Assembly (NCBI GenBank): GCA_016744415.1
Contig: JADGEL010000002.1
Location: 62,001-126,000, forward strand
Direction: 5' to 3'
DNA: 64,000 bases
DNA from: Flavobacteriaceae bacterium
GTDB taxonomy: Bacteria > Bacteroidota > Bacteroidia > Flavobacteriales > Flavobacteriaceae
Under the pieces are notes generated by a model. It searched no databases. It saw only the letters and a program-made list of their open reading frames with translations, and had not been told where the DNA came from. A program made the translations under genes and the position numbers. Below, piece by piece: positions 48,207 through 64,000 of this stretch. Position 1 is the first letter of the stretch, and every line of letters begins with the position of its first letter.

Positions 48207-48923
48207 ATGAAGCTAGACATATTAGCAATTGGGGCACACCCAGATGATGTCGAACTAAGTTGTTCTGCAACTATTTCAAAAGAAATATCATTAGGAAAAA
48301 AAGTTGGTATTCTAGATTTAACTAGAGGAGAACTAGGGACTCGAGGGTCAGCCGAAATTAGAACAAAAGAAGCGACTGAAGCTGCAAAAATTATAGGAGT
48401 ATCAATAAGAGAGAACCTTGATTTTGCTGATGGTTTTTTTACAAATGACAAAAATCACCAATTAGAAATAATAAAAATTATACGAAAATATCGGCCTGAA
48501 ATAGTTTTGTGCAATGCTATTGATGATAGACATATTGATCATCCAAAAGGGAGTAAGTTAACTTCTGATGCTTGTTTCTTATCTGGATTAAGGAGAGTAG
48601 AAACTGATTTGAATGGCATTACTCAAGAAGCATGGAGACCTAAAAAAGTGTATCATTACATTCAATGGAAAAATATTGAGCCAGACTTTGTGGTTGATGT
48701 AACTGGTTTTATGGATATTAAAATAGCATCAGTCAAAGCTTATAAATCTCAGTTTCATGATCCAAATAGCAAAGAGCCAATATCTCCCATTACAAGTAAA
48801 AACTTTATTGATAGTGTGTTGTATCGAGCAAAAGATTTAGGGAGGTTAATTGGCACTGAATATGCCGAAGGCTATACTGTTGAACGTCCCATAGCTATTA
48901 AAAATTTAGACAATTTAATTTAA
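48207..48923 (+). CDS. bshB1: Bacillithiol biosynthesis deacetylase
   Basis: The 238-residue protein has the LmbE/PIG-L zinc motif 'AIGAHPDDVELSCSATI', then 'LDLTRGELGTRGSAEIRTKEA' and 'DDRHIDHPKGSKLTSDACFLSGL'. These match BshB1, which hydrolyses GlcNAc-malate to GlcN-malate in the second step of bacillithiol synthesis. The length is as expected. Bacteroidota commonly make bacillithiol in place of glutathione. The gene stands alone upstream of tRNA-His. Confidence 0.95.
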   Translation: MKLDILAIGAHPDDVELSCSATISKEISLGKKVGILDLTRGELGTRGSAEIRTKEATEAAKIIGVSIRENLDFADGFFTNDKNHQLEIIKIIRKYRPEIVLCNAIDDRHIDHPKGSKLTSDACFLSGLRRVETDLNGITQEAWRPKKVYHYIQWKNIEPDFVVDVTGFMDIKIASVKAYKSQFHDPNSKEPISPITSKNFIDSVLYRAKDLGRLIGTEYAEGYTVERPIAIKNLDNLI

Positions 48924-48989: not shown

Positions 48990-49064
48990 GGTGGTTGTAG
49001 CTCAGTTGGTTAGAGCATCGGTTTGTGGTACCGAGGGTCGTGGGTTCGAGCCCCATCTTCCACC
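48990..49064 (+). tRNA. tRNA-His (anticodon GTG)
   Basis: The cloverleaf reads GTGGTTG (acceptor), GCTC/GAGC D-stem, TCGGT-TTGTGGT-ACCGA anticodon stem-loop with GTG, and GTGGG-TTCGAGC-CCCAT T-arm. A G at 48990 and a C at 49064 give the extra G-1:C73 pair typical of tRNA-His. CCA is not encoded as such. The acceptor 3' strand is CTTCCAC, which leaves apparent U-U juxtapositions at positions 5:68 and 6:67; see findings. Confidence 0.9.
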
Positions 49065-49065
49065 C

Positions 49066-49103: not shown

Positions 49104-49457
49104 GCGTAATTAACTTATAGATTCTCTAAAAAGTCTGTAACCCATCTTGTTTAAAAAAACACCTGTTTTGTTTATAAAAAAAAGCCCTTACAACCAAATG
49201 ATTATAAGGACTCTTGCGGAGAAAGAGGCACATCACCCGCCGCTCATAATCCTATATACAGAAAGGGATACGTGAATTTACTAACTCCTTGGTGACACAT
49301 AGGTAACGCTCTTAAAATTCATTTTATCGACTGCAATTTTAACAAAATTTTAACATTTATGCAGTTCAATATCCACAATAAATCTATCCTAAGCTGTCCA
49401 ACTTTTGAGTGCAGTACAAATCTAAATACTAACATATTTTTCTCTCATTTTTAAAAA
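49104..49457. other. Intergenic region at the left border of the defence island
   Basis: These 354 bases separate the tRNA-His terminator from the end of the HEPN-motif gene. They hold the tRNA-Ser 3' fragment with a terminator (see separate entry) and the string 'GGTGACACATAGGTAAC', which has a short direct repeat (GGTGACA / GGTAAC). No ORF is credible. The region reads as a junction between core chromosome and accessory DNA. Confidence 0.6.
49179..49228 (-). mobile_element. Candidate attachment-site remnant: 3' end of a tRNA-Ser gene plus terminator
   Basis: On the minus strand CCTCTTTCTCCGCA (49228-49215) equals the 3' end of a typical Bacteroidota tRNA-Ser, and is followed by CCTTATAA...TTGTAAGG (one G-U pair), GC and a T-run, a rho-independent terminator. 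The rest of the tRNA is absent: the base after the fragment diverges from any T-loop. This is the pattern left at the distal border when an integrative element inserts into a tRNA 3' end. By orientation the element would extend to the right, toward an intact tRNA-Ser outside the window. Confidence 0.55.
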
Positions 49458-50861
49458 TTACACTTTTAAATAATATCCTTCTTCTACAGGGTAACCAGTA
49501 CTCATTTCATTTATTTTCGAAAAATTAAGAACATAATTATCATACCCAACATGTTTAAGAATTACCATATTCAGGAGTGTATATAATCTTACAGAAGCAT
49601 AATACAAATCTTTATCCTTATCATTAATTGAGCGGTCATCACCCAATTCTCTGTAGTCTGGAACACGACCATGAAGAAAGTCATTTCGAGAGGCTATCAC
49701 TTTTAAATCTTCTTCAGATAGGTAAATATTTAATATTTTAAAAGGTAGTTTTAGCCTTTCTTTATTAGTCACTTGATTAATTCTTCCTCTCAATGTTTCT
49801 ATATCCTTAAAACATTCTTTTCCTGAGTACTTGTCTAAAACTTTGTTCAAATCTTTTCTAAAGTTTTTATTTTCAGTTTTGGAAGTTATTGGTGATAATT
49901 TCTCTTTTCTATCTCCAATAACAATATCTGAAAGTGTCTCAAGAGCAATGGAATATCCACTAGGTCTAAAAATTAGGCTCGCATCACTAGATTCAATAAT
50001 TAATAGTAGCATAGCAAGAAAATCATCATTTTTAAAAACAGTTTGACATAATTTTGAAAACTCATTGATTGTCAAGCCCCTCAATTCTTTTCTTTTATAT
50101 ATTTTATTAGCCTCACTTTTAACTCTTGTCCAAGAATAAGGATTAGAATTAACAGGGTGCATTAAAGTTTTTATAGTTTCTCTTAATGTAAGAAAAACAA
50201 ACCCTATGAAATGTTTTCTATTTTTGTTATTGTATGCGAAATAATATGCTTTACCTCCTATAAAATTACCTAGTATATATCCTAAAGATACTCTTATTGC
50301 AAACATTTTGTCTGCAAATTCTTCAAATGATTGTTTCTTATTGGATTCAATTATTAAATAGCCTTTACTTTTTGTTTCATCTTTTTCTTGTAAAATATAA
50401 ATTTCTTCATCTTCAAAGTTTATGATTGTTCCATTTGTTGACCATTTCCAATTTTCACTGGCATAAATGAATTTACTAAGTTGAAAATTAAAATTAATTT
50501 TTTTCTTTAATGGAATTACAATTTTATAATACTTTAGTTTGTCTTTTTTTAAAGAAGAACTTATAATGGAGTTAATTATTCCAGTATTGAATGAGTCTAA
50601 ATATATTTGTTGAATTTTTAATGTTTCATCCTCAGTATTAAATGAAACATCTTTGATAATTTTCCCTAATATAGTTTTGTTATTTTTAGATGTTAAAATG
50701 TCTTTAAAACTAATTTTGAATAAGTTTTTGTTAGATTCAAAAGATATATTTTTCAAACCATTTAAATAATTTGAACGACATTTAAGACTTCCATTTTTGG
50801 GTAGTTCAAATTCTTCTATAAACTTGATTGGTTCTTTATTATAAAAATATTTCGCTTTCAT
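49458..50861 (-). CDS. HEPN-motif protein of a candidate defence operon
   Basis: The 467-residue protein is not a family I can name. Near its C-terminus 'ASRNDFLHGR' (R392-H397) gives the R-x4-H active-site motif of HEPN ribonucleases, set between helices 'LNIYLSEEDLKVIAS' and 'LYYASVRLYTLLNMVILKHV', as in Apea-like HEPN proteins. The N-terminal ~200 residues are beta-rich and may sense a ligand or protein. As last gene of the operon, overlapping the CoiA-like gene by four bases (ATGA), it may be the RNA-cleaving effector. The alternative is a structural HEPN fold with no catalysis. Confidence 0.65.
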   Translation of the reverse strand: MKAKYFYNKEPIKFIEEFELPKNGSLKCRSNYLNGLKNISFESNKNLFKISFKDILTSKNNKTILGKIIKDVSFNTEDETLKIQQIYLDSFNTGIINSIISSSLKKDKLKYYKIVIPLKKKINFNFQLSKFIYASENWKWSTNGTIINFEDEEIYILQEKDETKSKGYLIIESNKKQSFEEFADKMFAIRVSLGYILGNFIGGKAYYFAYNNKNRKHFIGFVFLTLRETIKTLMHPVNSNPYSWTRVKSEANKIYKRKELRGLTINEFSKLCQTVFKNDDFLAMLLLIIESSDASLIFRPSGYSIALETLSDIVIGDRKEKLSPITSKTENKNFRKDLNKVLDKYSGKECFKDIETLRGRINQVTNKERLKLPFKILNIYLSEEDLKVIASRNDFLHGRVPDYRELGDDRSINDKDKDLYYASVRLYTLLNMVILKHVGYDNYVLNFSKINEMSTGYPVEEGYYLKV

Positions 50862-52525
50862 AGATATAGAAAATAATCAATTTTTGGAAAAATTATACTA
50901 ATCAACATAGATAGTTCTTTTTCTTTTTTCATATAATTAACCCCTTCTTGCCAACTATTTTCTAAGTAGTTCTCAATTTTTTTTCTTAAGCCTCCTTTTT
51001 TATCTTCTTTTCTATAAAACTCATCTAACCCACCTTTATAGTAGTTCTGAATTCCAAAAACGATAATAGCTTGGTAATTAAAATATTTACTTTTTTCGTT
51101 AAAATACAGGTTAGCTATTTGAGATAACTTCACATAATTAAACCCTATTACTCTATTAAATTTTAGTGAAAGAATAGTAAATAAATATTTTTCATATTTC
51201 ACTATACACCCTAAATTATAATCTGAAAAAGAAACACCATTTTGCCCCTCAATGTATTTGGCATAAAATGTAGCTTGAGCTAAATAATAAATTATTGAAT
51301 CACTCCCTGTTGATTTAGTATTTTTAAGTTCATTTCTAAATTCATTTTGTAAGAATCTCTTATCATTTGAATTTAACCTTGAAAAGACATTAAAGTACCT
51401 GTATAAATTAATTTCAATTTCAAGTTTTGTGGAACGAAATACTCCTTGAAACTTTGTAAGGTCTAAATGGTTAGAATATAACCTATTAAAAAAATCAATG
51501 TTAATTTTTTCATACTCATCTTCCTCTTGTAAAATATGACTCCTTCTTTCTTTATTATGATCTCCAGAATATGTTCTATTTATATATTTAATATTATCAC
51601 TCTTTAGATCTTCCCTTTTTTCTGCTAAACTGATTTTATTTAATTCGTTATTTACTTTTTCTTCTTCTTTTTGATAGTCAAAATAATATACTTTGTAATT
51701 ATTAGAATCAAATGTCAAATCTGCTAAGCTTACATAAGCTTCGCACCAAGTCAACTCTATAACTCCATTAGTTATTTCAGGTTTTTGCCAATGACATAAT
51801 AAGATTAGTTCTTCTCTTTCTTTAGATAATGAAATTGCTTTACTGTCTAATACAAACGCATTTCTGTTATTAGAGTAGAATATATCTTTATCTGTAAATC
51901 TTTGTTTGAATTTTTCAAGCTCAAAGTTTTTAAATATCCAAATGATATAAGTATTGTTTTCTTTGTAAAAATGTTCTCTATCAACAATTACACTTAAAAA
52001 TGTAGTTGAAAGTTGTATTTCAAACACTACGTCTAAATCTTTATAAACTGAGGTAACATCAGGTTTTTTCCAATTTAAATAATCTACCTTGCTTTTTTTT
52101 ACTTTTTCGGTTGCAACAAAGGAAACGTTTCCATGAACTTCCTTATCTAAAAGCAGAAAATCTCTGATTAGATTTTTAGTTTTTTTATGCAAGGGGCTTT
52201 CCTTAGCTCCATTATATTTCGCCCTTAATAAGTCTTTTTTATTTATTTTCGAGTCAATCTTTAATGGGCAATCATCACTATCTTTAAAATGTGAAAAGTG
52301 GAGAATTTTATTAGTTCCAATACCTCCATTTATTTTTATTTTTTGACCGCATATATAACATACAAATAATGGAGAGCGTATACCTTTGATTGCTTCTTGC
52401 AATTTTCTTCTGTAACTAAATATTTCACCCTCTTTTTTATTAAAAAAACCATCCGCAATTATTTCCTTTCCTGTTTCTTTATTTAAAACAGTTTTAATTG
52501 TTCTAATGTTTCTTCTAACCCCCAT
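50858..52525 (-). CDS. CoiA-like Zn-finger / PD-(D/E)XK nuclease-like protein (DUF6035-like)
   Basis: The 555-residue protein has a zinc-ribbon pattern (C56, C59, H76, H79, C86: 'FVCYICGQ', 'LHFSHFKD') followed by a nuclease core: 'AKESPLHKKTK' (E109, H113), 'WKKPDV' (D156) and 'VFEIQLS' (E169, Q171). That order is the E-x3-H, K-x-D-V, E-x-Q pattern of CoiA competence proteins and related restriction-like nucleases. From memory it resembles proteins annotated DUF6035. The remaining ~350 residues are helical with no domain I recognise. It is fourth in the operon and overlaps the micro-ORF upstream by 11 bases and the HEPN gene downstream by four. Confidence 0.7.
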   Translation of the reverse strand: MGVRRNIRTIKTVLNKETGKEIIADGFFNKKEGEIFSYRRKLQEAIKGIRSPLFVCYICGQKIKINGGIGTNKILHFSHFKDSDDCPLKIDSKINKKDLLRAKYNGAKESPLHKKTKNLIRDFLLLDKEVHGNVSFVATEKVKKSKVDYLNWKKPDVTSVYKDLDVVFEIQLSTTFLSVIVDREHFYKENNTYIIWIFKNFELEKFKQRFTDKDIFYSNNRNAFVLDSKAISLSKEREELILLCHWQKPEITNGVIELTWCEAYVSLADLTFDSNNYKVYYFDYQKEEEKVNNELNKISLAEKREDLKSDNIKYINRTYSGDHNKERRSHILQEEDEYEKINIDFFNRLYSNHLDLTKFQGVFRSTKLEIEINLYRYFNVFSRLNSNDKRFLQNEFRNELKNTKSTGSDSIIYYLAQATFYAKYIEGQNGVSFSDYNLGCIVKYEKYLFTILSLKFNRVIGFNYVKLSQIANLYFNEKSKYFNYQAIIVFGIQNYYKGGLDEFYRKEDKKGGLRKKIENYLENSWQEGVNYMKKEKELSMLISIIFPKIDYFLYL

Positions 52526-52619
52526 GTTCTATAAATTCTTTTCGAACCCAATATTCAATTGAATGATTCGAATCATAGGTAAGGCTTTCTACATTTTTAT
52601 ATTTACTAAACTCTATCAT
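52515..52619 (-). CDS. 34-residue micro-ORF between helicase and CoiA-like gene
   Basis: This ORF is too short for the track. The ATG at 52619 overlaps the helicase stop by one base (TAATG) and the TAG at 52515 overlaps the start of the CoiA-like gene by 11 bases. It encodes MIEFSKYKNVESLTYDSN... ending EFIEHGG, charged and without a signal peptide or membrane span. It fills exactly the only gap in an otherwise overlapping operon, which favours translation and coupling over chance. Possible roles are a small regulator, an antitoxin-like inhibitor, or only a coupling leader peptide. Confidence 0.5.
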   Translation of the reverse strand: MIEFSKYKNVESLTYDSNHSIEYWVRKEFIEHGG

Positions 52620-54649
52620 TATACAATTTTTGGTAAATTAACATTTAACACTTCCCACTTTTCAGTGTCAATATCGCTTAAGTTAGCATTAAATCTATCT
52701 TGATGAATTGCTATACATAATAAATCGGTTGGTCTAGATAAACCAACATAAGCCATCTTTAATGTCTGTTTTACAATCTTTGTTGTGCTACTTATACATA
52801 CAAAAGGTGTATGTTTTAACTGATTTGAGAGTCTTTGCCATTCATAATTTCCACCACCTCCAATTTTATGAAAAGTTTCTAAATACAATGTGCAAGTGTG
52901 TGTCTGTCCTTTTGCAGAATGGATAGTTCCTATATTAATATCAAACCCATGATGATTAACTGTGTTACGTGATTGATTATTACTATCAACTTCAATAACT
53001 ATTTCATCACTAGGATTATTGACAAAATCACTTGAATTAATTATATGTTTTTCAAAAATCAATAAGAAATCAGTAATATAATTCTTCACTTCTTGATAAA
53101 CATTTTCAAACCCGCCTTTAATCAAGGTAATAGACCAATTATATAAATTAAGCTTTAGCAATTCATATTCATCAAAGAAGTTTTCTTTAAGATATGACAT
53201 TAGATTCTTTTTGGTATAGGGTCTACTAGTTATTAAGTTAGTAACATCTTCATATCTGAGAGTTTTGATTAGAGCGTTTAATATGTTCTTTCTATAGGGC
53301 TCTAGTGTACCTTTAGATTTATCACATAATTTTAGATATGTATCTAAATTCAAATAATCAATTCTTTGAACTGACCTACTTACCTCAAATTCATTACAAT
53401 AATCTTTTATACTGGTTTTGTTTTCCTCAGGATGTTTTTTTATCCATCCAATAACATTATAATTATTATCCTCTTTGTCTTTAATTACACCAGAATTAAT
53501 ATGCTCATTAACTATTTTAGAATATGAAGGAATTACTTCTCCAATACTATCATCTGTATAAACCAATACATGAGGCTTAATAGTTCCTGAATTTAACCCA
53601 ATCACCTCGTAATCCTCATCTCTTTCTAATATTAAGCAATTGACTACTTCAGCATTTACTTGAGTAAGTCTATGGCTTCCTTTTAACTTTAAAATAGTAT
53701 CTCTATCACTCCAAATTTCATCTAAAGAAACTCTTCCATTAAAAATAGCTTGGTTTTTATCTCCTACTCTTTGGTAAATTGATTTACTATTTCCTTCATC
53801 AAAAAATATTTCTTCTAAAAGCTCGTATTGATGCTTGTCCATATCTTGCATTTCATCAACAAAAACAAACTTAAATCGTTCTTGAACTATTTCTTTTGTC
53901 CTTGGAAATCTACTCAAGTAGCTTTCAGCAAAAAAGTATGCATCATCATAATTTAAAACTCCTAATTCAAAAATTTTAAGTTTAAAATCAATTAGCCAAT
54001 TTTTAATAATGCTCTTTTCATTTGTTGAAAAATCTACCCAATTTGCTCCTCTACTTCTTGGTTTAGCAATATTTAATTCACTTCCATTAATTCCGTTTAA
54101 AACTTTCAATTCTTCATTATCATATTTTAATCTATATGAATATTCCAATTTATTAGTCTTCAAATAGTATTTTGCTTTACTTCCTAGTTGATATGTATAA
54201 TCTAACAAATTAAACCTTAATTGCTTCTCTACCTTTTCAATATATATATCATTGTCTATTCTATAAGGCTTTGTTTTATATTTATGCAAATAATATGGAA
54301 CAGCTAAGAATTGGTCTACAAAGCTTTGAATAGTTCCCACAAAATTTGGATAAGAAAATAGTTTGGGACAATACTTCCCTATTCTTTCAGTTATTTCATC
54401 TATAGCAACATTTGTATGCGATAGAACTAATACACCCCTGTTTTTTGTTAAAGGCAAATACCTTTCAACAATAAGTAATTTAGCAAGTAAAACAGTGGTT
54501 TTCCCACTTCCTGGAACAGCTTGTAAATCAAGTGTGTCAAGATTTTTAATAAAAGCTATTCTTTCATCATCAAATGTTTCACCATCGTTTAACAATATGC
54601 TTTCTGAATAAGCAATATCTTCGTTGGTAATATTAATTATTGCAGACAT
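52619..54649 (-). CDS. UvrD/Rep-like superfamily 1 helicase (GajB-like)
   Basis: The track starts at a TTG (54655); the ATG at 54649 (MSAIINITNEDIAYS) is preferred, giving 676 residues and a 17-base overlap with the OLD gene. All SF1A motifs are visible: Walker A 'AVPGSGKTTVLL', Ia 'LVLSHTNVAIDEI', II 'VFVDEMQDMDKHQ', III 'RVGDKNQAIF', IV 'KGSHRLTQVN', V 'GTIHSAKGQTHT' and VI 'AYVGLSRPTDLL'. It should translocate on or unwind DNA with ATP. Paired with an OLD-family nuclease it matches the two-gene Gabija layout, though it is longer than typical GajB as I recall it. Confidence 0.88.
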   Translation of the reverse strand: MSAIINITNEDIAYSESILLNDGETFDDERIAFIKNLDTLDLQAVPGSGKTTVLLAKLLIVERYLPLTKNRGVLVLSHTNVAIDEITERIGKYCPKLFSYPNFVGTIQSFVDQFLAVPYYLHKYKTKPYRIDNDIYIEKVEKQLRFNLLDYTYQLGSKAKYYLKTNKLEYSYRLKYDNEELKVLNGINGSELNIAKPRSRGANWVDFSTNEKSIIKNWLIDFKLKIFELGVLNYDDAYFFAESYLSRFPRTKEIVQERFKFVFVDEMQDMDKHQYELLEEIFFDEGNSKSIYQRVGDKNQAIFNGRVSLDEIWSDRDTILKLKGSHRLTQVNAEVVNCLILERDEDYEVIGLNSGTIKPHVLVYTDDSIGEVIPSYSKIVNEHINSGVIKDKEDNNYNVIGWIKKHPEENKTSIKDYCNEFEVSRSVQRIDYLNLDTYLKLCDKSKGTLEPYRKNILNALIKTLRYEDVTNLITSRPYTKKNLMSYLKENFFDEYELLKLNLYNWSITLIKGGFENVYQEVKNYITDFLLIFEKHIINSSDFVNNPSDEIVIEVDSNNQSRNTVNHHGFDINIGTIHSAKGQTHTCTLYLETFHKIGGGGNYEWQRLSNQLKHTPFVCISSTTKIVKQTLKMAYVGLSRPTDLLCIAIHQDRFNANLSDIDTEKWEVLNVNLPKIV

Positions 54650-56474
54650 ATACAATAGCTTTTAATAGTGTATGAATAGAATCTGTATCATATAATACAA
54701 TTTGACTATCGTTTGACACAATATCTTCTTCAATCTTTTGAGCAATTTGATATGCGATTTCAGATTTTTTTAAGCCTTTATTGATTAATTTTTTTGCTAA
54801 CTCCATTTCTGGGTCAGTATCCCAATCAGTTCCTGAATGAATTGAATTAACTACTTCTATAAATATATCTTTCAATCCCTCAGATTTAAAGAGGTTATAT
54901 TCTAAAGTCCAATTTCCTGAAATAAAGGCTTTAATGTTTTGACTATCATAATTTGATTCTAAAGCAATCTTTTTCTCAATTTCTTTTGGTTCAATAAGAT
55001 CACTATCTAACTTGTTGAAGTCATAGATTGTTTTTCCTTGAGCATTTTTTAGAACAGTACCATCACCGTTTGTTGAAGGTTCTTTTTCATAATGTCTGAC
55101 ATCTAAATCCGTAATTACCGAAATAGGAATATCAATATATGGCTCAACTATTCTAGCAAAAATATTTGAATATCTTAATAATGCTGTACTTCCGACATTA
55201 ACTATCGAAACCCCAGCTTCAGTCAAATCTTTATCTATTTTTCCCATTGATTTCATTTTTTTAGCCAAGACAGGAATTAATATTTCTTCAGACCAACCTT
55301 CAACTATTATTACCCCTCTAGCAAAGAACAAATTAGCTTTGGTAACATCTAGAAATCTTTCTAAGAATTTATAATCATCTCCATTTAGCTTAGTGTAATT
55401 TTCCCCCATTGGAAATGCACTATTTTTAGAACAGAGGATTATATCTTCCAACTTTACTTTTGAAGCAAGATTAGGGCTATGAGTAGTGAGAATAAGTTGA
55501 ACCTTATCTTGTCTTTGTAGTGATTCAATAACTTTCATTTGAGCCTGAGGATGAAGATGAGCTTCTAACTCTTCTATTAAGCCTAACCTTATTCCTGACC
55601 AACCCTGCTTATTAAGATGTAGTAATTCCGAAGCCATAAAAAGTCGATTAAGGGTTCCTAGCCCAATGTTAACTTCATCTTTTACAAGTAACTCAAGTTT
55701 CTCTAATATTTGCCTTAAACGAGCTTCTACAACCCCAATTTTAGTTTCTTTAGTAGAATCATAAAATGACTTTAAATACTTATCTATTTCATCTTTCAAA
55801 TCTTTTCCATTCTGGTCATCAGCTAAGGTGTTACCAGTCCCATCATTACCTTCAAAATATTCTTCAATTGCGCTATTAAAATCTTGAAAAATAGAAATTA
55901 GATGATGGTCATCTTCATTTCCTTTAAAAGCTTTGTGTTCTTGAAATATTTGAGAGAGTCTAGAGTTTTTTTTAGGAATTAATTCATTTTTAGCATCTCT
56001 CAGGGGTTTTAAATATGTTGATTTTAAATATTCTTTTGCTTCAAAAGTTAATTGATACCCTTCGTCATCTACCCCAGCTTTTATGTCTGAGTTAAAGACT
56101 CTACTATTTACTTTAGACACATCATATATAAGTCTTAAATATGGCTTAGTATTTTCTCCTTCTCTATACCATCCTAACCATTCAGTAAAATTCTTTGCTT
56201 CATTATTACTCAAGCCGTCAAAAATAATTTCTATTCTAAATCTATCTGTTCCACTAAAAAAGTCTTGTTCATCAATTCTAATCCATTCATAGCTATGAGT
56301 TTTTAAAACAGTTTTTATTGAATCTATTATTGCTGATTTACCAGAATCATTTTCTCCAATTAAAACATTTAGTCCATTGGTAAAATCCAAATTTAAGTCT
56401 GGCTTTTGTAAATCAATTTCTTCAAGATTACCATATTTCCTGAAGTTCCATAATTTTAAGTTCCTTATATACAT
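54633..56474 (-). CDS. OLD-family ATP-dependent endonuclease (ATPase + TOPRIM, GajA-like)
   Basis: The 613-residue protein has an SMC/ABC-type ATPase: Walker A 'GENDSGKSAI' (40-47), a signature-like 'LGTLNRLFMASELL', Walker B 'LGLIEELEAHLHPQ' (298-309) and H-loop 'LTTHSPN'. The C-terminal TOPRIM has 'GVIIVEGWSEEILIP' (E392) and 'VITDLDVRH' (D456, D458), the metal-binding acids. OLD nucleases nick or cut DNA, and GajA of this class degrades phage DNA when nucleotides fall. It is the first gene of the operon and has a candidate promoter upstream. Confidence 0.88.
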   Translation of the reverse strand: MYIRNLKLWNFRKYGNLEEIDLQKPDLNLDFTNGLNVLIGENDSGKSAIIDSIKTVLKTHSYEWIRIDEQDFFSGTDRFRIEIIFDGLSNNEAKNFTEWLGWYREGENTKPYLRLIYDVSKVNSRVFNSDIKAGVDDEGYQLTFEAKEYLKSTYLKPLRDAKNELIPKKNSRLSQIFQEHKAFKGNEDDHHLISIFQDFNSAIEEYFEGNDGTGNTLADDQNGKDLKDEIDKYLKSFYDSTKETKIGVVEARLRQILEKLELLVKDEVNIGLGTLNRLFMASELLHLNKQGWSGIRLGLIEELEAHLHPQAQMKVIESLQRQDKVQLILTTHSPNLASKVKLEDIILCSKNSAFPMGENYTKLNGDDYKFLERFLDVTKANLFFARGVIIVEGWSEEILIPVLAKKMKSMGKIDKDLTEAGVSIVNVGSTALLRYSNIFARIVEPYIDIPISVITDLDVRHYEKEPSTNGDGTVLKNAQGKTIYDFNKLDSDLIEPKEIEKKIALESNYDSQNIKAFISGNWTLEYNLFKSEGLKDIFIEVVNSIHSGTDWDTDPEMELAKKLINKGLKKSEIAYQIAQKIEEDIVSNDSQIVLYDTDSIHTLLKAIVYVCNN

Positions 56475-56508
56475 ATCATGATTTTTTAACCCAATAGAAA
56501 TATTTTTA

Positions 56509-56536
56509 CAAATAAAACTTTAATACGAAAAGCAAA
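56509..56536 (-). promoter_or_regulatory. Candidate promoter of the OLD/helicase/nuclease operon
   Basis: Minus strand TTTG (56536-56533) and TTTATTTG (56516-56509, seven of eight matches to TAnnTTTG) are about 16 bases apart, shorter than ideal. It lies 35 bases before the OLD ATG. Confidence 0.35.
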
Positions 56537-56860
56537 GTTTTAAAGTATCAATAAATTAAAAATATAGCTGAGTCTAGCAATTTAGATCAATGTATAAATA
56601 TAACAATATTATTTGTTTCTTATACTTTAATGCATTTACATTCATTCTTTAAATAGAATATATGATTATAACCTAGAAGGAATATTAATATAATTATATC
56701 ATTAACATTAAATGGAATTATTTGGTGCACACCGCTAACAATATTTCTGAATTTAACACCTATCATTTTGAAAAAAGAGGAAGAAGATAAGTGGCAGTAA
56801 AGTGATTAAGAAAAAAGTAGGTGATGAGGTTTTGAGGTTAGAAGGGAAGCTGTAAAAACA

Positions 56861-56890
56861 AAAACCACAACTTTTACATTGTGGTTTTAT
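56861..56890 (-). terminator. Terminator of the RHS/lipoprotein operon
   Basis: AAAACCACAA and TTGTGGTTTT form a perfect ten-base stem around an eight-base loop, with T-rich flanks on both strands. It lies about 85 bases past the lipoprotein stop. Confidence 0.8.
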
Positions 56891-56973
56891 TTCCCTTATA
56901 TGGGACGTTTTATTATGAATTTATTGCGGATGTTGCATTGGATTCTTTTACAATATTTTATGATATTACTTTT

Positions 56974-58014
56974 TTACTGAGTTATTTTATTATCTCTTAC
57001 ATATAAATTTATAATATTTGGTTTAGATATTTGTATTTTTAAAGTGTCACTTGTAATTTCTAGTACTTTAAAATATAATTGTTCTTCCTCGAAAAAAAGT
57101 CCTCTGGATTTTGAAAAATCATCTATAAATAAATATTTTGTATTTTTATTATAGCTAATTTTATTTTTTAAAAACAATTTATCTTTTTCAAAAAGGATTA
57201 TTCTATTAAGAAACCCGTCATCAGTAAATTTTAAATTTGAAAAATCAATAAATTTTTTATATTTTCTCTTAGATTCTGAAGAAGAATCTAAGAGAAAATT
57301 ATAGTGATTTTCCGCTATTTTATTTTTACTATCCTCTTTAATTTTAATCCAATCTCCTATTAAGTTTTGATCAATTTCATTTGCATTAATCTTTTTATAT
57401 TTTTTCTCAACCCACTTATTATTATACAAATACTGAATGATTAATTTGTCCTGATCATAATACGAAAGAAAGAAATACTTAGTGTCACTAAATAAATAAA
57501 ATTTATTGAACAACTTGTTTTCATAATAACTAAAAAAATTTAACTCTCCATAATTCTCTTCTTTTCGTTTGTAAAAATTATAAATTCCTTTATTTTCAAC
57601 TACCCTAATATAAAAATTAACACTATCATTCTTTTCCTCTAATTCCCATTCAGTATTATTAAGATTTTCAATATTAAAATTATTGTAACTAAATCTCTTA
57701 AGGTAAATATTATTACCATCCCCATCCCCATTTAGCGAAGAGTCAAATAAAATAGAGTCTTTAGATTTTTTTTTATATGAATACAGTTTATCACCTACTT
57801 TTAGATATCCTTTTTCATAAGTTAACTTATATTTTTTGACAACAGAATCTTGTAGTTTGAAAACTTTTAAGCTATCTGAGGTAAATTCATAGAAATTCTC
57901 ATGGTTAGAAAAAATACCAATAATTTCATCATTTTTCCTTTGAACACAACTTATTACAATCAAAAGAAAAAATAAAGCCCAAGTCTTATTTTTTTTACTT
58001 CTTACTAATCTCAT
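56974..58014 (-). CDS. Hypothetical lipoprotein overlapping the RHS gene; candidate partner or immunity protein
   Basis: I do not recognise this 346-residue protein. It has a basic N-terminus and hydrophobic segment 'TWALFFLLIVISC', a type II signal with lipobox VISC, so it should be a membrane lipoprotein. The rest is charged, Lys/Asn/Tyr-rich and predicted beta, with repeated 'LNNTEWELEEKND'-like and 'LIGDWIKIKEDS'-like segments reminiscent of lipocalin-type domains. It starts 20 bases inside the RHS gene end, so both are co-translated. Position after the RHS variable C-terminus is where immunity genes of polymorphic toxins lie, but a lipoprotein immunity protein is only a suggestion. Confidence 0.6.
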   Translation of the reverse strand: MRLVRSKKNKTWALFFLLIVISCVQRKNDEIIGIFSNHENFYEFTSDSLKVFKLQDSVVKKYKLTYEKGYLKVGDKLYSYKKKSKDSILFDSSLNGDGDGNNIYLKRFSYNNFNIENLNNTEWELEEKNDSVNFYIRVVENKGIYNFYKRKEENYGELNFFSYYENKLFNKFYLFSDTKYFFLSYYDQDKLIIQYLYNNKWVEKKYKKINANEIDQNLIGDWIKIKEDSKNKIAENHYNFLLDSSSESKRKYKKFIDFSNLKFTDDGFLNRIILFEKDKLFLKNKISYNKNTKYLFIDDFSKSRGLFFEEEQLYFKVLEITSDTLKIQISKPNIINLYVRDNKITQ

Positions 58015-61000
58015 TTTTATGAAATTCTATTCTATTCTTCCAAAAATCTAAATAATTCTGCCTCGCTTCATTTGTTCTCCAAGATATAAAACCTCCTGTG
58101 AAGTGCATTCCATATGGATAAGTGGTAGTTATAATATTATCATTAAAGTGGTCAACCACATTAGGTGTATTTGGATTATCACCAATTCTTCCATTACCAT
58201 TTCTTAACCTTAAATTAGTGGCATTTTTACTTATTGTTAAGTATGTTGATTTTCCAATTGTATAATGAATACTCCCTTTTACAACTTTCATTGTTTTAGG
58301 ATCTAAATCAAATGACGCTCCAAGAGCAGGATCGAGGCTCCACCATTTTAGATAATTCTTAATATCATAACTAATTTGACTAATATCTATTCCATCATAC
58401 CAAAGTTTAATGTTTTCTTTAATGAAATTTTGATCATTTGACACTGATTTTAATGCCGCATTATAAGCCTTTCTATCGTGAATCTCATTAACTACATCGA
58501 CAACATTACTGATAATAGTTCCAAGTGCAACTTTCATCTCATTTGAAATATCTTCACCTGCTTGATGGGTAACAGTATGTACATCTTTTGATTCTGAAGA
58601 AAGAGTAGAAGTATAAGAGGAGCCATCACTATACATAGTTGTTAATTTATTTTTTAAAGTTTGTGTTGTAGTTGTTTCATACATATCATTTCCGACACCA
58701 ATTATCCAAGCTACTTTATCTGAATATTGACTATCTGCTCCTGAAGGGTCAGCCCAATAAACAGGATTATTATCAAAAGCATTGTATGTACTCATAGAGT
58801 GATGTGTCACAGGGTCTATAGATGTCCATCTTGCAATGGTTGGATCATAAGAACGCATGTCCATTTCATACATATTATAGCCAAGGCTTTCTTCAAATTC
58901 TTTACCGTTGAACTTAAACTTTTGCGCAATATTAGTAGATGTTACAATATTGTTATATCCCTTTTGTTTCAATCCAAATGGGTAGTAGTTTGACTCCTCT
59001 ATAATTTCAGACTGAGCTATAGTTCCATTATTATCAGCATCAGAGTATGATAATCGCACGTTCCCTAAGTGGTCTTTATATTGATAGATATAATCAAACC
59101 CTATGATAGTTTGTGAAATAGGATCTCTTTCAGGTTCAATATACCCTTCAGAGTGATTAAATGATTGCAAAACATACGGAGCATTACCTGAAGATTTTGA
59201 ATATATAAAACTACCAGAATATCCTTGACCGTTAACAGTTTCAGACAAATTAGGGTAACTTTCACCTTTATTAATTTTAACGCCATTTGCGTCATAACGA
59301 AAAGCAATAATTCCTGCACCTGGAATATTAATATCGTTATCATAAAAAGTAACTTGAGTAGGTAAATTTAAATGATTGTATTGGATGTCTGTAATCCCTT
59401 TATTTTTATCTTTCTTCATATTGCCATTTACATCATACGAATAATCATCACCTGTATTGACACCATCTTTAAACCCATATGTACTATTCCCTAAATCATC
59501 AACTTTTGTTAATTGATTTCCGGTATAACTATAGTTTAAATTATCCATCACACCAAAATCTGCAGGCACAGCTAAATCAGGATTTAATACAATATGACCA
59601 TTTCTTTTTAGTTCTAAAATATTGCCATTTTTATCATAGCCTGTAAATACCAAATTAAACTTGTCATCATTACTTTCTCCTGAAATTATTCTATTTAAAG
59701 CATCATACTCATAGGTATATGTTTTTATACTTTTATCTGTATTTAGTGTATTCCAACTAGTTTGGCTTATGTTACCATTAAATAATGCAGTACCAGAAGT
59801 TGGGTTGTTATACATAAGGGTAAAGTTAAACAAATCATTATCGCTTATTGCATCTTCATTAATATTTTTTAACCAACCTCTAATATTGTATGCGTAATCA
59901 ACATTTTGTAACCCCATACCAGAATTTATAACTACAAAGTTTTGTATACTACTATCTTCATGGTAGAAATAAATATCACCTCTTAAAGAAGTAGATACGC
60001 TAGTTGCTAAAGAAGTATAAAAAACTTCATTGTTTTTTATATATTCAATTTTAGTACCTGTACGTTTGACTGAAAATACATCATTAGGAAGATATGTTGA
60101 TTTATCTCCAAGATTTGTTGAACCTTCATAAATACGAACTTTACCATTAAATTGCAGAGATATTGCAAAATCTATTGTACTTGATGCACTTACAGAAGAA
60201 TCATTTAAGCCAAACTTTAACGTTCTACCTGTTTGATTAATTTTAACCCTAACAATACCATCACTAGATATTGTCTCAACTGTAGAAACACCATGATTCC
60301 AAGACGAGCCACCAGTTTGTTTGGTAATTGTATTGTTTGTTATGGAAATTTCTACAGGGCTATGGTTATTATAAGTGCTTAAATTAGGAATTGTTCCTCC
60401 AACATTTTTTCTTGATAATTGCCCTAATTCATCATATTCATTAAGCACAATTGTTTCTGTACCTCCTGAATTAATTTGTTTTTGATGTTCTAATAATCTA
60501 TTGGCATGATCATATAAAAATAAATCTTCAGTTACAATAACATTATTAGTTGTTTCAAATGCTGGGATTCCATCATCTTTAATATGAGTACTATGTGCTT
60601 CTAATACTTTACCATCAAAACCAAGTTTGCTAGTAATCACTTCAGAAGTACTTAAAGAAGTAATAGTATGATTCATTTGAATTGAACTACCTTTTTCATC
60701 GTAATAGAATGTTGATGATGTTTCCCATATTGAACCTGAATTTTCTGTAAATGATGGTAACTCTTTAGCAAAACTTCCTGTTAATAAACCTATAACATTA
60801 TTATTGAGTTCTTGTCCAAAAGCAGAGTGTCCTATATGTATGCTTGTTGCGGCTGTTCCTATATTACGAAGACTGCCATCTCCTTTAAGCACACCAATAG
60901 ATTCAGAAGATGATACATAAAATATATCGCCATTTTTTTTGTATACTATTTGACTTCCTAAGCGTTCAATCTTAAAAACATCACCATTATTTGCATAAGT

Positions 61001-62584
61001 TGTTGGAGGTGTAATACTAACCCCTTCTTCATATATATATACTTTTTTGGTTGAGGTACCAGTTAAAATAGCATGGTCTATTGAGGTATAATCTTCTTCT
61101 AAATAGTCCTCATTTGTATCAATTGTAATATTAGAAAGTCCAATTATAGCACGTTTATCATCTTCATTAATGGTATATTGAATATAGCCATCTCCTTGAA
61201 TTTCAGATTCAGTTAAAAATCCAGAATCATATAAATTATCAGAACCATTAATTTTAGCAATTCCAGCACTAGCAGTTACTCTTACGTTTTGGGCAGGAGA
61301 TACATTAGTAAAGTTGTAAGAAGCTTCAATACCTGCTGTTGGAGACCAAGAATAGTCATCGTAATAATTTACGGTTAGAATATCCAAAGCACCATTTTCA
61401 TTAGGGAATGCACTATTGGAATAATATGATTCTGTTCCATCAATTAGTATTGGTGATGAAATTCTAGATTCGTGATTTATTGCTGAATCTGTATATGCTC
61501 TATCTTGCATATTTATTCGAGAATCCACATCATTCAAAACCCCTGTATATGCAATTCTATTAAGAGCATCATATTTTGTAAAGAGCCATTGACCATAACT
61601 TCTTAGTAAGGCATCTTGAGTTAAAACAGGTCTGTTTAAGTTATCGTATATTATGAATTCCCATCCTTTACCTGGGATTTTCTTTTCTACAATTCTGTTG
61701 CGTTCATCATATTTGTATTGATAACAAAGGTTATCTAATTCAACTGCAATGACATCATTATTTGAATCAAGAATTCTATCTACAGCTAGAGGAGGGATAA
61801 CAAAAGAAAGGTTTCCAAAGTCATCATAAATATAGTAGGTGTCATGAGAAGTTGAAACTCCATTGATATCAGCATAGGCTCTGCTTAAAACAACTCTTCC
61901 AAGCTTATCTTTAAATTCTTCTTTAGTTCGGTTAGTTCCATCAGAAACCACCCAATTTTCATCTTTAACTATATTTTTAAGTAGCGAGTTTTGTAAGTAG
62001 TTTTGGATGTATAGTAATTCTGGATTTTCAAAATCGTCATTTGTAAATTTTACGTCAAACATTAAAACTTCATTGGTGCTATTCGTTTGGTAATCTAATT
62101 TAATAGTATGATTGTTTGCCATTTTCCAATCCTCGCCAGGTGCTGCTTGTTCAAAAACTCTATTTAATGGAGAAGATTCAACAAATTTTTCAGCAAATGG
62201 ATTTAACGTATTTTCATATTTAGACGTATTATAAAAAGAAGCTATACCGTTAAAAGCATCTGATCGAAAATCACCATTGTTAGTAATTTCAGCATAAGGT
62301 AAATATTCTTTTATTTGTCTACCCAGATTGTCATATTCAAAATAGCTTATAATGTCTTCTTTGTTCCCACCAGCTCTTTGATTAACTGATTGTATTGGTC
62401 TGCCTAATCCATCATAATAGGTAACTGTTTCAATTTTGTGATTTTCTGGTATGTTAGAAGGAGTTGCTGTTTCACTAATACTATACTCTTTGGTATAGAT
62501 AGTGTTTTTCACATAATTTTGATCTGTACTTTGCCCTACAATAACTAAAGGTAAAACAAGTAATATATAAAGTAAATTTTTCAT
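57995..62584 (-). CDS. RHS-repeat protein with DUF6443-like N-terminus and variable C-terminal region
   Basis: The 1529-residue secreted protein has a signal peptide ('LLYILLVLPLVIVGQ'), an N-terminal DUF6443-like domain ('ETVTYYDGLGRPIQSV', 'YLPYAE'), YD/RHS repeats ('YIYDDFGNLSFVIPP', 'YDALNRIISG', 'YDVNGNMKKDKNKG'), two inserted beta domains with 'IHIGHSAFGQ'-type text, and the RHS core near 1200-1283 ('YYPFGLKQKGYN', 'NGKEFEESLGYNMYEMDMR', 'NPVYWADPSG'). After the core, 246 residues form a variable tail with no toxin family I recognise. RHS shells encapsulate such tails. The gene follows a second YD-repeat gene by six bases. Confidence 0.85.
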   Translation of the reverse strand: MKNLLYILLVLPLVIVGQSTDQNYVKNTIYTKEYSISETATPSNIPENHKIETVTYYDGLGRPIQSVNQRAGGNKEDIISYFEYDNLGRQIKEYLPYAEITNNGDFRSDAFNGIASFYNTSKYENTLNPFAEKFVESSPLNRVFEQAAPGEDWKMANNHTIKLDYQTNSTNEVLMFDVKFTNDDFENPELLYIQNYLQNSLLKNIVKDENWVVSDGTNRTKEEFKDKLGRVVLSRAYADINGVSTSHDTYYIYDDFGNLSFVIPPLAVDRILDSNNDVIAVELDNLCYQYKYDERNRIVEKKIPGKGWEFIIYDNLNRPVLTQDALLRSYGQWLFTKYDALNRIAYTGVLNDVDSRINMQDRAYTDSAINHESRISSPILIDGTESYYSNSAFPNENGALDILTVNYYDDYSWSPTAGIEASYNFTNVSPAQNVRVTASAGIAKINGSDNLYDSGFLTESEIQGDGYIQYTINEDDKRAIIGLSNITIDTNEDYLEEDYTSIDHAILTGTSTKKVYIYEEGVSITPPTTYANNGDVFKIERLGSQIVYKKNGDIFYVSSSESIGVLKGDGSLRNIGTAATSIHIGHSAFGQELNNNVIGLLTGSFAKELPSFTENSGSIWETSSTFYYDEKGSSIQMNHTITSLSTSEVITSKLGFDGKVLEAHSTHIKDDGIPAFETTNNVIVTEDLFLYDHANRLLEHQKQINSGGTETIVLNEYDELGQLSRKNVGGTIPNLSTYNNHSPVEISITNNTITKQTGGSSWNHGVSTVETISSDGIVRVKINQTGRTLKFGLNDSSVSASSTIDFAISLQFNGKVRIYEGSTNLGDKSTYLPNDVFSVKRTGTKIEYIKNNEVFYTSLATSVSTSLRGDIYFYHEDSSIQNFVVINSGMGLQNVDYAYNIRGWLKNINEDAISDNDLFNFTLMYNNPTSGTALFNGNISQTSWNTLNTDKSIKTYTYEYDALNRIISGESNDDKFNLVFTGYDKNGNILELKRNGHIVLNPDLAVPADFGVMDNLNYSYTGNQLTKVDDLGNSTYGFKDGVNTGDDYSYDVNGNMKKDKNKGITDIQYNHLNLPTQVTFYDNDINIPGAGIIAFRYDANGVKINKGESYPNLSETVNGQGYSGSFIYSKSSGNAPYVLQSFNHSEGYIEPERDPISQTIIGFDYIYQYKDHLGNVRLSYSDADNNGTIAQSEIIEESNYYPFGLKQKGYNNIVTSTNIAQKFKFNGKEFEESLGYNMYEMDMRSYDPTIARWTSIDPVTHHSMSTYNAFDNNPVYWADPSGADSQYSDKVAWIIGVGNDMYETTTTQTLKNKLTTMYSDGSSYTSTLSSESKDVHTVTHQAGEDISNEMKVALGTIISNVVDVVNEIHDRKAYNAALKSVSNDQNFIKENIKLWYDGIDISQISYDIKNYLKWWSLDPALGASFDLDPKTMKVVKGSIHYTIGKSTYLTISKNATNLRLRNGNGRIGDNPNTPNVVDHFNDNIITTTYPYGMHFTGGFISWRTNEARQNYLDFWKNRIEFHKNEISKK

Positions 62585-62590
62585 GTCTTA

Positions 62591-64000
62591 TTAGTTTTGA
62601 GGTTTAAAGTTGTATTCGTTTTCTGTCAACACATTTCCATCATGGTCTGTAACATGCTCCAATCTATTAAATTCATCATAATGATAGAAAACTACTCTAG
62701 CACGAGGGTCAGTAGAACTGGTAACTCCAATTAATGGATCGTAGGTGTATGTTGTTAATTGAGCAGTATCTACAAAATAAGTGTCAGATACGAGTGCATT
62801 TAATCTGTCCCTAATTTCAGCTTCTACTGTAATGGAATTTTCACTATTTGATAAGGTCTTTATAGCAGCAATTTCACCTCCTAATAAGGGCGGCATTCCA
62901 AAAAGAGTTGCATTTTCAATTTTACCAATTAAATGTTCATTGCCATATCCCCAAATTAAAATAGTATGTGAGCTATTAATTTGTTCAGAGATTTCTCGTG
63001 GTTTTCCATTTGAATTATATTGATGTATTATATATTTAGTATGATCGCTAGTTAGGTCACATAGGTCTTGTGGGTCTTGATTTGGATCTAGGATTCCACC
63101 TGTATCTTTTGGGAGTATATTTAATATAGGAGTTTTGCCAATAATCTCTTTTTCTAGAAAAGGACTTTCAGAAATAAAATTAGTTCCAATCGGCACACCT
63201 TGACTATCGTATTTTTCATAAAATTTTTTGAAGACCATTAATGAGTTGCCAGTTAGAGTGGAAGCTCTATAGGTATTAATCAGTATTGGAGTTGAAATTC
63301 TATTTTGAGCGATTAAATCATCTAAGTATTCAAATTGAGGACAAATTACAGTTGTTACTTCAGGATAATCATAATCGCTATTATAAGGATAAATGAATTC
63401 TGTTTTATGTACATCTCCATCAGAGTTTTGAACAGATTTTTCTTTGATGAAAGGGTAATCATCTTCATAGGTGAATGTTGAACTAACTGAATGTGTTTGA
63501 CCATTGAAATAACTATAATCAATAGTTGTTTTAACAGGGTTTCTAGCAATTTGTATATAAGCACCTTCAGAAAGATAAGCATGAGGGTCGCAACCATCAC
63601 TATTAGGGTCTACATATGGAATACCACCACCTACGCCTATGCTTTCATATTCTTTATAGTGATAAGTGTATTCTGACTTTTTAAGCAAACCGTCAGTTTC
63701 ATTAAAATGAGATATTTTAGTTAAAGTGCCTCTTAACAAATCTCTATCAGTAACAATAGAAGGAAAACATCCATTTGCAACTTTCTGTGTAATAATACCA
63801 GTTGGCATATCCCATTGGTCTCCATTTGGAGGTGGTGACCCATTTATATTTGGGAGTGTCATATTCCAAGAACCTTGCAAGTTCGGATAATCATTTGGAG
63901 TTGTATACTCCTTAATAGTATAACCATTTCCAGATTCACTTATTTTTACTCTCTCATAACCTATAAATGAAGCATTGGTAATTTTTTGGTTAGACATGTC
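62591..64000 (-). CDS. RHS/YD-repeat partner protein (5' end beyond window)
   Basis: The track calls a start at 63997, but the frame is open to the right edge, so the gene continues outside the window. The visible 470 codons contain YD-like sequences ('YTYDPLIGVTSSTDPRARVVFYHYDEFNRLEHVTD') and end 'LTENEYNFKP'. In Bacteroidota, a protein with this C-terminal sequence commonly precedes the DUF6443-RHS protein, and the spacing here is six bases. It is probably secreted or surface exposed like its neighbour. Its N-terminal domains cannot be seen. Confidence 0.75.
   Translation of the reverse strand, partial: DMSNQKITNASFIGYERVKISESGNGYTIKEYTTPNDYPNLQGSWNMTLPNINGSPPPNGDQWDMPTGIITQKVANGCFPSIVTDRDLLRGTLTKISHFNETDGLLKKSEYTYHYKEYESIGVGGGIPYVDPNSDGCDPHAYLSEGAYIQIARNPVKTTIDYSYFNGQTHSVSSTFTYEDDYPFIKEKSVQNSDGDVHKTEFIYPYNSDYDYPEVTTVICPQFEYLDDLIAQNRISTPILINTYRASTLTGNSLMVFKKFYEKYDSQGVPIGTNFISESPFLEKEIIGKTPILNILPKDTGGILDPNQDPQDLCDLTSDHTKYIIHQYNSNGKPREISEQINSSHTILIWGYGNEHLIGKIENATLFGMPPLLGGEIAAIKTLSNSENSITVEAEIRDRLNALVSDTYFVDTAQLTTYTYDPLIGVTSSTDPRARVVFYHYDEFNRLEHVTDHDGNVLTENEYNFKPQN

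Follow-up and report, generated by a model that had tools for sequence, protein, structure and literature searches.

Left edge of about 183 kb of acquired DNA at a tRNA-Ser(UGA) gene in a marine member of the Flavobacteriaceae, apparently inserted in two back-to-back steps

Islander-type tRNA islands combine an intact tRNA gene, a displaced 3' fragment oriented like it, an inner tyrosine integrase and foreign cargo (PMC4383910), and a tandem array is accepted if a separate fragment and integrase belong to each of its members (PMC4383910). The IntCTnDOT subgroup of tyrosine recombinases has Arm-DNA-bind_5, SAM-like and catalytic domains; loss of the first catalytic arginine (Arg I) has been described in it for CTnDOT and ERL, and in CTnDOT another arginine takes over (PMC8138268). 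In the Gabija system, GajA and GajB are adjacent. The locus described here has features of all three. In a marine bacterium, we found that a leftover tRNA-gene piece bounds on the left some 183,000 bases of acquired DNA with phage-defence and sugar-degradation genes, which apparently entered a single tRNA gene in two back-to-back steps. The kind of insertion is known, nothing in principle separating it from the Islander islands except that it is long (182.7 kb) and lies in the Flavobacteriaceae, and it is mapped precisely here.

The window, that is, the whole analysed stretch of 64,000 nucleotides, corresponds to positions 62001-126000 of contig C4 in a 3.13-Mb draft genome of 6 contigs. On its minus strand CCTCTTTCTCCGCA is read at 49228-49215, followed on the 3' side by AGTCCTTATAATC-ATTT-GGTTGTAAGGGCT and then TTTTTTTT, an intrinsic terminator consisting of a hairpin and eight T. 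No tRNA was called at 49215-49228, and the sole tRNA in the window is a tRNA-His at 48991-49065. The features of this border are as follows, G007 being Urechidicola sp. MAG6 (JAQRMW010000262.1), the closest congener searched.

48207-48923, plus strand: PIG-L/BshB1-like deacetylase (called bshB1, a name from sequence resemblance), chromosomal flank; present in 35 of 40 relatives, 91% identical in G007
48991-49065, plus strand: tRNA-His (tRNA call), chromosomal flank; same neighbour at the empty site
About 49180-49213, minus strand: native terminator of the tRNA-Ser(UGA) gene, which stayed with the fragment; aligns with the terminator 3' of the intact tRNA-Ser in G007
49215-49228, minus strand: displaced 3' end of tRNA-Ser(UGA), CCTCTTTCTCCGCA, serving as the island's left attachment site; matches the tRNA-Ser 3' end of G007 base for base, and similarity to the empty site ends exactly here
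49215-64000, no strand: window part of the 182.7-kb island, delimited by the repeats, the intact tRNA and the integrases

The exact 14-mer has two copies in the whole 3.13-Mb genome, at C4:111215-111228 (window 49215-49228) and C4:134450-134463, both on the minus strand, and a reversed-pattern control has none. No tRNA gene was called at either copy, so the second was rejected as an intact tRNA. A third site, found with mismatches allowed at C4:293961-293974 (CCTCTTTCTCCGCT), forms the 3' end of an intact tRNA-Ser gene (C4:293962-294047, anticodon TGA), on the same strand as both fragments and 168 kb beyond the window end. Its end has 13 of the 14 bases of the fragments and differs at base 14 (CCGCT versus CCGCA), and the 13-mer CCTCTTTCTCCGC has three genome copies, namely the two fragments and the intact end, on one contig and one strand. 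Within 195 kb of the locus scanned for tRNA ends with at most two mismatches, C4:111215, 134450 and 293962 were the only sites. Upstream of the intact gene is aroC (chorismate synthase, named from sequence), while 239 bp downstream is Int419, a 419-aa tyrosine recombinase (C4:292464-293723). All three repeat sites and Int419 are on one 834-kb contig, and therefore no contig join is involved.

From left to right the locus thus reads terminator and fragment, element 1 with Int402, second fragment, element 2 with Int419, intact tRNA-Ser and aroC, the second fragment dividing the 182.7 kb of inserted DNA into 23.2 kb (element 1) and 159.5 kb (element 2). An intact tRNA stands at one end and a displaced fragment, pointing the same way, at the other; a tyrosine integrase gene inside adjoins the intact tRNA. 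A preliminary description of the window had proposed a tRNA-Ser 3' fragment with terminator at the border of an element extending rightward, and an intact tRNA-Ser with a tyrosine-recombinase gene beyond the window; all of this agrees with what we found, except that the same end was expected in all 14 bases and is shared in 13. Its minimum extent of about 14.7 kb holds as a lower limit, the actual length being about twelve times greater. The part outside the window contains Int417, a DUF5906 primase-helicase-like gene, Int402, the second fragment, element 2, Int419 and the intact tRNA-Ser(UGA). We consider it very probable that the fragment is an attR left by integrative elements recombining into the end of tRNA-Ser(UGA), apparently at least twice.

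Element 2 carries SusC/SusD genes, a secretin, T2SS E and F homologues and cytosine methylases, together with sulfatase-like genes and RHS-like giant genes (both assigned by eye). Beside Int419, a candidate defence cluster (C4:276039-292281; loci L019, L020 and L007) comprises a metallo-beta-lactamase/Lamassu-like gene, PDC-S06 with HNH, an AbiE pair, PDC-S54 and AbiH. It is also seen that the start of a secreted protein (MKVTRVLPLILLLSFISYAQ...) is near-identical at C4:274529-275599 and C4:287981-288292, the second copy being truncated, which is a duplication inside the island.

The 159.5-kb part might itself be a patchwork of several elements and of transposed segments with decayed inner borders, a reading of element 2 only, compatible with integration into tRNA-Ser(UGA), and one to which we give an even chance. 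It is favoured by content of mixed kinds, by a G+C that varies from 0.29 to 0.34 per 10 kb, by two secretion-like clusters and by three further Xer-like recombinases at C4:212-217 kb, which would allow for earlier insertions into element 2; the lack of any further tRNA-end copy with at most two mismatches within it speaks against this reading.

The division into two elements follows from the second fragment (C4:134450-134463) and Int402, a 402-aa tyrosine recombinase (C4:133035-134243) 207 bp to its left, an arrangement that matches Int419 beside the intact tRNA (239 bp). Each member of the array therefore has its own fragment and integrase, and applying the published rule (PMC4383910) to this pair gives 23.2 kb and 159.5 kb as two units, as in the Islander tandem arrays. 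The preliminary description had a single element ending at the intact tRNA; because the next fragment rightward is a displaced one with its own integrase, 23.2 kb away, there appear to be at least two tandem islands instead. All of the DNA does lie between one fragment with its native terminator and one intact tRNA, as it would if Int419 had carried a single 182.7-kb island in which the middle fragment and Int402 are an older, separate element, trapped or carried inside. We regard this as unlikely, since the middle fragment matches exactly and is accompanied, at the customary spacing, by an integrase of its own, the feature by which published work recognises a tandem array. Under the tandem reading, element 1 consists, from its integrase end, of Int402, a 300-aa protein of no named family, small proteins (one a possible DNA-binding regulator), a DUF5906/VapE-like primase-helicase, Int417, RHS-type proteins, and finally Gabija with a CoiA-like nuclease and a 467-aa protein. 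No phage structural gene was assigned among the 10 proteins scanned in it. Its features in the window, and Int417 beyond, are:

49458-50861, minus strand: 467-aa protein, distal end of element 1; no Pfam match, no PADLOC match
50858-52525, minus strand: DUF6035/DUF7830 protein with a CoiA-nuclease-like domain, from family search
52619-54655, minus strand: GajB, UvrD-type helicase of the Gabija system; E 6.4e-251
54633-56474, minus strand: GajA, ATPase and TOPRIM nuclease of the Gabija system; E 1.6e-220, no orthologue in 13 congeners
57995-62584, minus strand: RHS/DUF6443 protein, element 1 cargo
C4:127993-129246: Int417, second integrase of element 1; 43% identical to Int402

As in known Gabija systems, GajA and GajB are adjacent, with very strong matches; the difference is that they are flanked here by the CoiA-like protein and the 467-aa protein. 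These two genes (window 49458-52525) form one run with GajA and GajB, and their products may be accessory to Gabija.

An uninterrupted site was found in one relative, G007, where a single contig carries the end of bshB1, tRNA-His, 162 bp, a complete tRNA-Ser(UGA) and aroC; the start of this contig repeats the end of the contig with the whole bshB1. Alignment of the window to G007 covers tRNA-His, is taken up again in the tRNA-Ser terminator and ends exactly after GCGGAGAAAGAGG; at the right border it extends over the complete tRNA-Ser and the flank with aroC as far as the same 13-mer. Because the alignments to the empty site break at the 13-mer at both borders, the 14-mer at 49215-49228 is the displaced 3' end of tRNA-Ser(UGA), and the 182.7 kb between it and the intact gene were inserted. 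The case in which a relative without the defence genes keeps the same fragment did not occur, as G007 keeps the whole tRNA-Ser. A conserved adjacency of tRNA-His and tRNA-Ser across the genus was rejected: the two adjoin in G007 alone, and in the other congeners they are apart, each with its own gene neighbour.

This variable gene order around both tRNAs would also suit a tRNA-Ser copy that decayed in place or was cut by rearrangement, with no integration at all; the integrases at the expected ends, the direct orientation of the repeats and the exact break at the 13-mer on both sides make that very improbable. That the 14-mer, short and next to a terminator ordinary by itself, arose by chance or belongs to an unrelated terminator can be dismissed, since the 13-mer, present once in the window, occurs in 0 of 100 dinucleotide shuffles and the empty site of G007 has a complete tRNA-Ser in the same place.

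Integration into the last 13-14 bp of tRNA-Ser(UGA) would leave such an attR, made of the displaced 3' end and the native terminator. The attP of each element would bring a copy of the tRNA 3' end, and the element's tyrosine recombinase would exchange strands within CCTCTTTCTCCGC, so that a complete tRNA gene is restored next to the integrase and the former end is displaced to the opposite side of the element. Repeated at least once, as was apparently the case, this would give the array of elements 1 and 2. Excision is predicted to yield the circle junctions GGGTGATGTG-CCTCTTTCTCCGC-AGAGTTTTTT for element 1 and AGTTTTAGTT-CCTCTTTCTCCGC-TTAGAGATT for element 2. We infer which recombinase served which junction (Int402 by its position), in what order the elements were inserted, and the present or former unity of element 2. 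As tRNA-targeted integration the locus is clear-cut but ordinary, and the island is composite.

The cargo appears foreign from the three genes compared. GajA has no orthologue in G007 or the other congeners (13 searched), and the island's SusC and GspE are at most 34% and 60% identical in congeners, respectively; aroC is 85-95% identical among congeners where found. The boundaries of this large acquisition are now fixed exactly, and inherited and imported genes can therefore be separated in this genome.

Relatives of Int419 (E at most 1e-80) are present in 143 of 400 Flavobacteriaceae genomes. Among the best 30 Int419-type loci of the family, own genome included, tRNA-Ser(TGA) directly adjoins the gene in 25, while the other five have tRNA-Ser(GGA) (2), tRNA-Asp (2) or none (1). 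These 25 loci make tRNA-Ser(UGA) a recurrent target and entry point in the family, and offer a simple way to locate defence-gene islands in its other genomes. In all 56 Int419-type sequences, Int419 among them (C4:292464-293723, L007:7464-8723), Arg I is replaced by A or S, and the other residues examined (HxxR, H, Y) are kept. With its Arm-DNA-bind_5, SAM-like and catalytic domains and HxxR-H-Y, Int419 falls within the IntCTnDOT subgroup, in which Arg I loss is allowed, and since the same loss is described there (PMC8138268) it does not imply an inactive enzyme. Int419 resembles CTnDOT and ERL in lacking Arg I and differs from the subgroup in targeting a tRNA-Ser 3' end, whereas Int402 and Int417 keep the arginine. 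No relative of Int402 was found beside tRNA-Ser(UGA); the family has distant ones only (at most 37% identical), at tRNA-Asp, Pro, Arg and others, and the specificity of Int402 is hence read from its position.

Neither the MOBP relaxase PF03432 nor the TraG-type coupling protein (TraG-D_C, PF12696) is present anywhere in the genome. Within these two families, the relaxase and coupling protein of integrative conjugative or mobilizable elements were thus not found, and conjugative self-transfer is unsupported. Somewhat short of an even chance, we tentatively suggest that Int419 represents a lineage of recombinases without Arg I that are specialised for tRNA-Ser(UGA) throughout the Flavobacteriaceae, the tRNA being a family-wide port for exchanging defence genes and polysaccharide-utilisation clusters, with 183 kb stacked here without the two conjugation gene types tested.

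Two congeners (G005 and G008) have an Int419-type integrase at the same tRNA-Ser(UGA). In another (G010; contig G010:C59, L032:9787), the intact tRNA-Ser(UGA) is followed after 126 bp by a further tRNA-Ser 3' end that has a terminator of its own, perhaps the remnant of an element since lost. On the bshB1 side, one related genome (G006:C1:351890-353942, L029) has 34 codons from the start of bshB1 repeated at a distance of 1.2 kb upstream of its complete copy, as if something had inserted at the bshB1 5' end.
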